Shown here: piece after piece, positions 20,133-32,798 of the stretch
Numbering within the stretch: position 1 is the first letter of the stretch
How the letters are laid out: each line of letters opens with the position of its first letter
Origin: a virus
Length of the DNA: 35,204 nucleotides
Direction: 5' to 3' (one strand)
Virus record (IMG/VR): IMGVR_UViG_3300046010_016315
Coordinates: 1 to 35,204 of that record
Program-made: the position numbers and the translations under genes
Notes under the pieces: model-generated
Told to the model about the DNA's origin: nothing
The model's input: the letters and a program-made list of their open reading frames with translations, nothing else
Databases searched by the model: none

Positions 20133-20140
20133 TATTTATA
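20133..20140 (-). promoter_or_regulatory. T4-type late promoter TATAAATA for the baseplate operon
   Basis: The minus strand carries a perfect TATAAATA at 20140-20133, the -10 element used by the gp55/gp33/gp45 late system of T4-like phages. Transcription would start near 20126, about 23 bases before the ATG of the gp48/54-like gene at 20103. The element overlaps the first base of the divergent gp4 start codon (ATG 20140-20142). gp33 is encoded in this window, which supports a T4-style late programme. Confidence 0.65.
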
Positions 20141-20577
20141 TGGCATATAGCGGAAGATTTTTACCAAAAAACCCACAAAAATATCGTGGGAATCCATCAA
20201 ATATCATTTACCGTTCAACCTGGGAATGTCGGGTTATGAACTGGTTAGACACGAATGAATCAATACTGGAATGGGGATCAGAAGAAATCGTCATACCTTA
20301 CAGATCACCTGTTGATAACCGTGTTCACCGTTATTTTCCTGATTTTTACGTGAAAGTGAAGCAAAAAGATGATACAATTAAGGTTATGATTTTGGAAATT
20401 AAACCCGAAAAACAGACAAAACCACCAGAAAAGAAAAAAAGAGTTACAAAACAATATATCAATGAAGTTGTTACTTGGGGCGTAAACGAGGCAAAATGGA
20501 AAGCCGCGACTGAATTTTGTCTTGATCGAGGATGGCAATTTAAAGTATTGACCGAAAAGGATTTAGGTATAAAATGA
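20140..20577 (+). CDS. 4: Head completion protein gp4
   Basis: This 145-aa protein is a clear homologue of T4 gp4 (150 aa), needed to finish the filled head before tail joining. Shared blocks are M-A-Y-S-G-x-x-x-P-K-N-x-x-K-Y-R-G at the start, Y-R-S-x-W-E, W-L-D-x-N, W-G-S-E, and the later V-N-E-A-K-W-K-A-A with F-K-V-L-T-E. The arrangement E30 ... RYFPDFYV (about 63-70) ... ILEIKPEK (about 84-91) has the PD-(D/E)xK nuclease pattern, known to be present in this family. It is first in the plus-strand operon and its stop overlaps the next start (ATGA). Confidence 0.95.
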   Translation: MAYSGRFLPKNPQKYRGNPSNIIYRSTWECRVMNWLDTNESILEWGSEEIVIPYRSPVDNRVHRYFPDFYVKVKQKDDTIKVMILEIKPEKQTKPPEKKKRVTKQYINEVVTWGVNEAKWKAATEFCLDRGWQFKVLTEKDLGIK

Positions 20578-31303: not shown

Positions 31304-31741
31304 TTAGAAAGTGCTTTTAAGCCCGAAAGTAATCAGAGAGCCTTCGTAATTGGTATCTTTTTTGATATCCCAACGATAGCTATAATCGGCAGAAACAGAC
31401 AGGTGTTTATTCAGTGGGTAAGAAACTTCAAAACCAGTGGCTGCAACACCACCACTTTTAAGTGTGCTTGTATCAGCCCTAACGTAGTTCAGTGAAGTGT
31501 AAGGAAGAAGCCCAACACCAAAAACAGTGAAGGTTTTTCCTACGCTCGTTCCAATGCTGTGATAAGTTCCTTCAACTCGTGACAGGTCAACAGAAGTATG
31601 AAGCCCTGCAACTTTAGTACCGACGGTAAGAACAGTAAGATCCCTATCAAATTTTCGATCTGTACCAACAGATAGCCCAATATCGGCGGCTTGAACACCG
31701 AATGCTGAAGCCATCAAAATAGCAAAAACAGGTTTACGCAT
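31304..31741 (-). CDS. Phage-encoded outer-membrane beta-barrel protein
   Basis: A 145-aa secreted protein. Residues 1-18 are a classical signal peptide (M-R-K-P-V-F-A-I-L-M-A-S-A-F-G-V-Q-A) with an A-x-A-like cleavage site before A-D-I. The mature 127 residues show alternating beta strands (for example L-T-V-L-T-V-G-T-K-V, Y-H-S-I-G-T-S-V-G-K, L-S-V-S-A-D-Y-S-Y-R-W) and end in S-L-I-T-F-G-L-K-S-T-F, with the terminal Phe used for outer-membrane insertion. This suits a small barrel of about 8 strands. Function is unknown: candidates are receptor masking, superinfection exclusion, or help in lysis, given its place beside the endolysin. AAGGAG precedes ATG 31741. Confidence 0.8.
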   Translation of the reverse strand: MRKPVFAILMASAFGVQAADIGLSVGTDRKFDRDLTVLTVGTKVAGLHTSVDLSRVEGTYHSIGTSVGKTFTVFGVGLLPYTSLNYVRADTSTLKSGGVAATGFEVSYPLNKHLSVSADYSYRWDIKKDTNYEGSLITFGLKSTF

Positions 31742-31766
31742 TATAAATCTCCTTTTTTAGTAAAAT

Positions 31767-31803
31767 GGTGGGTTATTCTGTTACGAGGAAACCCACCGAA
31801 ACC
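31767..31803 (-). repeat. Hairpin repeat copy 2, leader of the barrel gene
   Basis: GGTGGGTT (31767-31774) and AACCCACC (31790-31797) form the same 8-bp stem as copy 1, here with a 15-base loop. GGAAACCCACCGAAACC (31787-31803) is identical to copy 1. The outer end overlaps the last hairpin of the tmRNA coding piece. On the minus strand the stem is followed by ATTTTACT, so weak termination or RNA processing between tmRNA and the barrel gene is possible. Confidence 0.85.
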
Positions 31804-31817
31804 CTAGGCTGGGTTTA

Positions 31818-31862
31818 GGCAGCCAATGCGAAACGATCTTCGTTTGCGTTTACTTCATTTGC
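31818..31862 (-). other. tmRNA tag reading frame (ANEVNANEDRFALAA)
   Basis: Fifteen codons GCA-AAT-GAA-GTA-AAC-GCA and onward, then TAA. The A-L-A-A end is the standard degradation signal for ClpXP-type proteases. The resume codon is inferred from the usual GCA-AAT/AAC start; the two GAA codons before it would be non-coding. Confidence 0.85.
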
Positions 31863-31955
31863 TTCTTCGGCCGGGAAGTCCCAACCCTAACGGCTTTCAC
31901 ATTGCCGAACTGTCCATCTTCCTACTCTTTGCCCTGTCGAAACCTGGTCAGCCCC

Positions 31956-32042
31956 ATCAGAAGTGTCCTGCTGTTCACAGGTTGGGAATTCCAATCCTCA
32001 GAGTCTTGTTAAACTCCTACATATCACCCTAAACAACACTTC
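31956..32042 (-). other. Intervening segment of the tmRNA precursor
   Basis: These 87 bases separate the CCA end of the acceptor piece from the 5' end of the coding piece. The bases at its two ends pair (AGAAGTGT with ACACTTCT, plus-strand 31959-31966 and 32036-32043), extending the acceptor stem as in a precursor that is later cut. It is expected to be removed by processing. No gene is seen here. Confidence 0.75.
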
Positions 32043-32128
32043 TGGTGGAGCTGGGGAGAATCGAACTCCCGTCCAGAACACTTTTTGGTTAACTTCATAC
32101 AGTCATAAATGATATTTTACTGCATTCC

Positions 32129-32136
32129 TATTTATT
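32129..32136 (-). promoter_or_regulatory. Possible late promoter AATAAATA before the tmRNA
   Basis: AATAAATA on the minus strand lies in the short gap after the nuclease gene stop (32139) and about 30 bases before the likely tmRNA acceptor piece. It fits a relaxed N-ATAAATA late motif. The same motif occurs by chance inside genes, so the evidence is mostly positional. Confidence 0.3.
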
Positions 32137-32138
32137 TG

Positions 32139-32798
32139 TCAAGTGTTTTTATGGTAAAAATCAATGTGTTCTGCTAGATTTTGTATATGATCTTGAGTTT
32201 TTTGCACAAAAACAAGAGGTTCCTGTGCTTCGACCGCCATTAGGATGACAATTTGATTCACCGGGACACCAATTCTTTCTTCATACATCAAAGCATATGC
32301 AGTACACTGAGCAAAATAGTCTTGAATGTCTTCTTCTTTCTTAATCTTAGAAGAGGTCTTAAAGTCGATCACAGATAGCATACCTTTCCATTCTGCAATG
32401 CAGTCAACAGTGCCAGCCATACCCAACTTTTCAGACCACAGAGATTGTTCCTGATAGTGTATATTATTGATATGTTTCAATTCTTTTTTAAGAGAGTGAT
32501 ACATCGATACACTATCAGGCATTTCTGAAATAAGATTTAGCTTTTCATTGTTCAAATGTTTTTCAACAAAAGTATGAAGTCTGGTGCCTCTTCTTGATGC
32601 TGCATTTGAAATACGATTAGCTTCCTCATTCCCAACTCTGTTTCTCCACTCGGTGATTATATGCTTCTTTTTAGCACCAATAATTGTTGTGACTGATGCT
32701 AATTTTTTACCACCGGGAGAGACATAGTATCTTTTGCCATCAGGGAAGGTTTCAGATACTAGTCTCTCAAGTGTTTTAGGTGGGCAATGATTGTACAT
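32139..32798 (-). CDS. PD-(D/E)XK exonuclease, Cas4/RecB-like
   Basis: A 219-aa nuclease of the type common in T4-like marine phages. The motifs are in order: R-G-T-R-L-H with His75, the E-Q-S-L-W-S-E-K-L-G-M-A-G-T-V-D block with Glu118 and Asp132, V-I-D-F-K-T-S with Asp145 and Lys147, and the Q-C-T-A-Y-A-L motif near 164-170. It has no cysteine set for the iron-sulfur cluster of true Cas4. It probably trims DNA ends in recombination or host DNA breakdown. Its ATG overlaps the phoH stop by one base (TAATG), so the two are co-translated. Confidence 0.88.
   Translation of the reverse strand: MYNHCPPKTLERLVSETFPDGKRYYVSPGGKKLASVTTIIGAKKKHIITEWRNRVGNEEANRISNAASRRGTRLHTFVEKHLNNEKLNLISEMPDSVSMYHSLKKELKHINNIHYQEQSLWSEKLGMAGTVDCIAEWKGMLSVIDFKTSSKIKKEEDIQDYFAQCTAYALMYEERIGVPVNQIVILMAVEAQEPLVFVQKTQDHIQNLAEHIDFYHKNT

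Follow-up and report, generated by a model that had tools for sequence, protein, structure and literature searches.

A permuted, two-piece tmRNA gene in a viral genome raises two questions: whether the gene works, and what lies in the intervening segment (IVS) between its two pieces, which is described as absent from the mature tmRNA (PMC11915505). The window, meaning the whole stretch of DNA that was analyzed, is IMG/VR record IMGVR_UViG_3300046010_016315, positions 1-35,204. This 35-kb record is a fragment of a T4-like phage. Phage permuted tmRNAs as such are already published (two-piece forms are 53 of the 133 unique tmRNA structures from phages, 50 aquatic; PMC9004378), and the IVS was not discussed there. 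The real novelty, judging from sequence comparison, is that the IVS is a conserved and exchangeable cassette, a feature missed by an earlier note on this DNA.

The two pieces of the tmRNA gene

The earlier note had proposed a phage-borne permuted tmRNA on the minus strand and had named covariance and ARAGORN searches as the check. Two Rfam models matched that strand at gathering level: RF04321 (tmRNA_permuted) with 127.5 bits (E 8e-25, cut-off 47) and RF01850 (beta_tmRNA) with 123.5 bits (E 2e-37, cut-off 84). ARAGORN called a tmRNA* at 32135-31724 with the tag ANEDRFALAA. Since these results agree, the call is not due to chance, and the proposal is confirmed. The gene is of the betaproteobacterial type and lies at 32156-31761 on the minus strand, with the acceptor piece first and the coding piece second, which is the permuted order (Table 1).

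Table 1. Features of the tmRNA locus and its upstream neighbor
Feature	Position	Strand	Basis or remark
Sigma-70-type promoter-like site, TTGACA-17-TAAAAT	32114..32142	-	11/12 consensus positions; consensus match only
Acceptor piece (helix 2 5' strand, T arm, 3' acceptor strand, encoded CCA)	32043..32107	-	5' end estimated from promoter
T arm, GGGAG-TTCGATT-CTCCC	32054..32070	-	Stem sequence differs in relatives, pairing retained
3' acceptor strand CAGCTCC (U70 pairs with G3)	32047..32053	-	Direct reading and relatives
Encoded CCA	32045-32043	-	Direct reading
IVS, 87-nt exchangeable cassette of structured-RNA type, without ORF	31956..32042	-	97% identity despite divergent flanks; consensus fold, 3 pairs with compensatory changes
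Coding piece (5' acceptor strand GGGGCTG, D-like region GGTTTCGAC, helix 2, tag, 3' hairpin)	31767..31955	-	3' end approximate
Extra hairpin GGTTGGG-ACTT-CCCGGCC, upstream of tag	31869..31886	-	Sequence comparison by eye
Tag frame ANEDRFALAA-stop, resume codon GCA at 31847-31845	31815..31847	-	ARAGORN
3' hairpin GGTGGGTT...AACCCACC, loop TCCTCGTAACAGAAT	31767..31797	-	z -3.7 for 31760-31815
Cas4-like/T4-type exonuclease (phrog_298), upstream neighbor	32139..32798	-	Anchor for finding relatives

Several details were read directly as first described: a 7-bp acceptor stem with G3-U70 (GGGGCTG, 31955-31949, with CAGCTCC, 32053-32047; 7 of 7 pairs), the encoded CCA, a T arm and a tag frame terminating in TAA. 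The tag had to be shortened to 10 residues. The 15-residue version began five codons too early: the beta_tmRNA consensus has UAAAuGC at the resume position, which here corresponds to the GCA that comes after GUAAAC. The added residues ANEVN are a misreading of the A-rich stretch that is conserved ahead of this codon. The tag keeps its ordinary ALAA end and therefore gives no hint of retargeted tagging, a role that had been suggested for it. The original gene extent, 31799-32100, was also too short, since a promoter-like site lies ahead of it and a 3' hairpin ends at 31767. The promoter-like site comes from a scan in which about one match of any quality is expected by chance.

The expectation that the two pieces would fold together held in part. 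Cofolding produced the expected acceptor, T and P2 helices, and helix 2, which would hold the pieces together, was predicted both in the covariance model alignment and in the cofold. The binding energy, however, was no different from that of shuffles (-8.5 kcal/mol vs -7.6, sd 3.3). The structural case for a two-piece tmRNA is carried by covariation. In the distal part of helix 2, the sequence differs among relatives and pairing is retained (by eye).

The gene has the same order, acceptor, T arm, G3-U70, CCA and ALAA end as the permuted beta tmRNAs of the RF01850/RF04321 type, together with the context of their resume codon and a predicted helix 2. It differs from them in being phage-borne, in its extra hairpin ahead of the tag and in its IVS of 87 nt, compared with 5-44 nt in the bacterial loci parsed. 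The extra hairpin is common to some phage tmRNAs and absent from the bacterial beta forms seen (by eye).

The phage, its host and related tmRNA genes

The genes of the window are T4-like and include baseplate proteins, a gp32-like SSB, a gp59 helicase loader, PhoH, MazG, a 2OG-Fe(II) oxygenase and an exonuclease. The closest cultured relatives of the gp32 and the exonuclease are found in cyanophages and pelagimyophages (approximately 44-66% identity), and GC content is 35-37%. Near the baseplate genes, a 145-aa protein (20140-20577, plus strand) has a TnsA-like endonuclease N-terminal domain (PF08722); in T4-like phages it is possibly a head-completion or packaging nuclease instead of a transposition protein. 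Directly downstream of the tmRNA (31304-31741, minus strand) is a small outer-membrane beta-barrel-like protein (weak PF13505), a possible surface protein. No anti-phage-defence families were detected near the tmRNA by PADLOC.

The likeness to betaproteobacteria, first seen in the end of the tag, was borne out: among the Rfam subtypes, beta scores best, and bacterial permuted tmRNAs of this type, carrying such tags as ANDERFALAA, were found. The subtype suggests a betaproteobacterial host. The methylophage Melnitz and the pelagimyophages are likewise T4-like aquatic phages with a two-piece tmRNA (PMC9004378). The Melnitz tmRNA is alphaproteobacterial in the tree of that study, whereas the tmRNA of the window scores best as beta. 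Among the window's relatives, SmpB was absent from four related phage records of 161-175 kb, which points to reliance on host SmpB.

A pattern scan of named genomes matched only Herbaspirillum, Duganella, an unclassified proteobacterium and Stenotrophomonas, and their tmRNAs are not close to that of the window. In seven Herbaspirillum and Duganella loci, the permuted tmRNAs have tags of 11 residues that end in YGT, FGT or VGT, not ALAA (e.g., ANEPQFVAYGT); a mobile element is a possible source. The Stenotrophomonas loci L088 and L089, as well as L092, combine a permuted tmRNA and a phage-like TGTATGAAG motif with an odd tag, ANADYYDQDEEVILRVA; the L088 genome has an additional standard tmRNA near smpB (ANDDNYAPVALAA). 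In a genome of the order Burkholderiales, a permuted tmRNA has by our parse an IVS of just 5 nt (TCGAC) and a predicted tag of 28 residues.

Related phages were found through the exonuclease. Among 80 viral loci chosen by this gene alone, ARAGORN detected a permuted tmRNA at most 4 kb away in most, and 17 of 18 records searched whole contained one. One apparent loss (L003) was dismissed, as the tmRNA sits elsewhere on the same contig. The comparison set consists of 352 unique phage permuted tmRNAs among the matches listed, obtained by pattern-based sampling that favors an IVS of 45-168 nt. These have at least 15 types of acceptor stem, all with G3-U70 and nearly perfect pairing. The mean of 7.00 pairs is conditional on a parse that demanded at least 6 of 7; when acceptor strands were swapped between sequences, the mean was only 5.6. 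From the widespread presence of the tmRNA near the exonuclease and from stems that vary and remain paired, we conclude on comparative grounds that the phage gene is maintained and functional.

Prophages can carry ssrA fragments (PMC9004378), and a non-functional remnant, or a host tmRNA fragment gained by imprecise excision, might be mistaken for a gene. The gene in the window, however, is complete, with intact stems, tag and promoter-like site, and it is kept in a T4-like lineage in which the stems have diversified yet still pair. Such an origin is already contradicted by the covariation across phages, and we regard it as very improbable.

The tags of the phage tmRNAs are diverse, with 164 different tags in 335 unique genes. 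Ten residues is the length in 216 of the 335. Most end in ALAA, and some in RLAA (28 tags), RIAA or LMAA. Long tags of 27-33 residues (e.g., ANADTFDFSAMSFTGNTVSGKSKVALAA) occur in about 40 unique genes. In phage S-CAM3, an annotated hypothetical protein (T040910_205; 561-701 of locus L530) overlaps the tmRNA gene, and the 41-aa family phrog_12117 matches a translation of tmRNA (MMGLPWFRQG). Misread tmRNA may therefore account for some small phage protein families.

Conservation and exchange of the intervening segment

The core of the window IVS is present in 25 contigs of the viral collection, solely in the tmRNA slot, and its family is found with acceptor stems of five types. Between members with different acceptors, the IVS is 96.9% identical, compared with 69.6% for the acceptor piece and 71.0% for the coding piece; by the same measure, unrelated phage tmRNAs give 65.7% and 61.1% for these two pieces. 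Thus, the supposedly discarded part is the most conserved. The reverse was also seen. In 46 pairs (a pairwise count, and so non-independent), the acceptor is the same, the coding piece is at least 93% identical and the IVS is unrelated. The coding piece of the window is 93% identical to that of locus L489, which has an unrelated IVS of 119 nt. Among the matches listed, the nearest phage whose tmRNA differs (its exonuclease is 86% identical) has another cassette. The same IVS in divergent tmRNAs and unrelated IVSs in near-identical tmRNAs establish, at the level of sequence, that the segment is an exchangeable cassette. Many segment families exist among the phage IVSs.

None of 4227 Rfam families, besides the tmRNA models, was confined to the window IVS (E up to 5), and gathering scans of related loci yielded no family in the IVS. 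The window cassette was not found in 369 bacterial genomes of the class, searched with strict filters and without a positive control. The literature search, which had most subscription papers outside its reach, returned no earlier report of IVS cassettes. A glutamine riboswitch reported with phage ssrA was rejected as the identity of the IVS; in phage Mosig, the riboswitch lies approximately 19 kb from the tmRNA.

Recombination offers one account of this pattern. T4-like phages recombine often, the flanks CCACCA and TGATGGG are conserved, and the near-identity of the IVS could come partly from recent recombination and not from constraint. The IVS might then be a mere processing spacer of an ordinary phage permuted tmRNA, made identical by recent exchange between co-infecting phages, with the T-arm and acceptor flanks serving as homology. 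However, the acceptor stems, which lie between the T arm and the IVS, do not travel with the IVS, and bacterial beta-type spacers are mostly simple hairpins at the 5-44 nt seen.

An identical cassette in tmRNAs with differing flanks would also be expected if small selfish elements homed to the position that separates CCA from the coding piece, where excision makes them tolerable. Mobile elements typically find refuge in excised positions, and one permuted tmRNA has a repetitive element in its IVS (PMC11915505). With sizes of 48-163 nt, however, the cassettes are too small for a nuclease or transposase, no copy of the window cassette was seen outside tmRNA in the viral collection, and no occupied/empty polymorphism at one site came to light. 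We consider this origin quite doubtful. The same study describes an intact tRNA-Ala in the IVS of a nominally archaeal permuted tmRNA. Both published cases also have an extra element in the IVS, but they are isolated oddities, whereas the phage segments form many recurring families, are exchanged and include mini-ORFs.

The cassette of the window appears to be a folded RNA. RNAalifold gave its family a multibranch consensus fold in which positions 1-7/77-83 form a closing stem and 14-20/48-59 a helix in two parts; there are two hairpins besides, and 99.6% of the cells are paired. Pair 26-43 occurs as AU, GC, GU and UA, and two further pairs have changes on both sides. No shuffle of 500 reached the covariation score, which depends on a few divergent members, mainly L222 and L262. 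The UUGUU linker (7-11) and the AACAA loop (33-37) are both near-invariant and could form a pseudoknot. In a second family of 19 unique segments, compensatory changes were found in 8 of 14 pairs. Thermodynamic z-scores were set aside as proof of structure: the window IVS alone has z of about -1.4 to -2.3, most IVS interiors are not unusually stable (mean z -0.44), and just the closing stem stands out. This last result favors a spacer. Against a spacer stand substitutions that leave the pairs intact, with AU, GC and UA all seen at one of them.

Other cassettes appear to be tiny genes. A near-full-length mini-ORF was found in 49 of 352 segments (e.g., MNDDLTPLAIGVVVVLVVFAIVLL and MTDIEKMQKVTDWFDANHHLFKLDQYYGIDIIAELYRLVNEVSL), starting shortly after CCA, mostly at IVS offset 9-14, behind a Shine-Dalgarno that directly follows CCA. 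The stops cluster at the end of the IVS, and 27 segments use as their stop the TGA in the conserved TGAT that precedes the coding piece. With a looser ORF definition, 59 of 352 segments qualified vs 14-29 in shuffles. Differences within mini-ORF families show a third-position excess (e.g., 79/45/103 and 11/8/21 at codon positions 1/2/3). In several segments, the closing stem contains the Shine-Dalgarno and, at the end of the ORF, its complement, which suggests translation control. A tblastn search with three of the peptides found no match to ordinary genes in cultured phages. The peptides had no strong PHROG; phrog_12117 matches only their tmRNA-derived tail and may itself derive from misread tmRNA loci. 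A spacer would not be expected to have long conserved loops, or complete mini-ORFs with an excess of third-position differences, and we think the spacer account unlikely. Neither recombination nor selfish elements explain the pair-preserving substitutions and full-length ORFs.

Long IVSs also occur in an unrelated phage family. The Achromobacter phages JWDelta (KF787094) and Axy11 (MK962630), of the Schitoviridae, have permuted tmRNAs with nearly the same tRNA-like domain and different IVSs of 207 and 113 nt. The JWDelta IVS has a fold z of -5.5 and no Rfam family; the Axy11 IVS does not stand out (z 0.3). The permuted tmRNAs of these two (in the stretches read) and of PaMx31 (JQ067090) have a long IVS and are unannotated as tmRNA. 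JWDelta and Axy11 are useful cultured models.

A probable cassette slot in a rescue RNA

We consider it probable that the T4-like phage of the window has a permuted tmRNA gene that works, and that the IVS of this gene is a slot for exchangeable cassettes and is released by ordinary processing. A single transcript would be processed like a pre-tRNA. RNase P would cut ahead of the coding piece, and the acceptor piece would end in CCA after 3' processing. Both pieces would remain paired and be charged with alanine via G3-U70. Using host SmpB, the tmRNA would rescue stalled ribosomes with the tag ANEDRFALAA. That it acts by established trans-translation is near certain, and its processing would follow that of known two-piece tmRNAs.

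The excised IVS would not be waste under the cassette-slot reading. It would be a slot for exchangeable cassettes: an 87-nt folded RNA in the window, and a different folded RNA or an entire mini-gene in other phages. With its closing stem stacking on or continuing the acceptor stem, the cassette would be freed by RNase P and 3' trimming as a discrete small RNA or mini-mRNA. Release by tmRNA processing is likely, and the chances that a cassette then has an independent function during infection are about even. In mini-ORF cassettes, the closing stem may sequester the Shine-Dalgarno, making translation dependent on the processing state. More generally, the IVS may be a cargo slot, with tmRNA processing co-producing phage-specific small RNAs or tiny proteins that are independent of the rescue RNAs and exchangeable between them; we hold the case for and against this as evenly balanced.

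If true, the discarded spacer of a near-universal rescue RNA would be a compact expression slot, in which one promoter yields a ribosome-rescue RNA and a small RNA or peptide at a near-fixed ratio. Annotation would have missed numerous new families, both of small structured RNAs and of phage peptides of 20-50 residues. This would also be a possible reason for the permuted form being kept in many aquatic phages.
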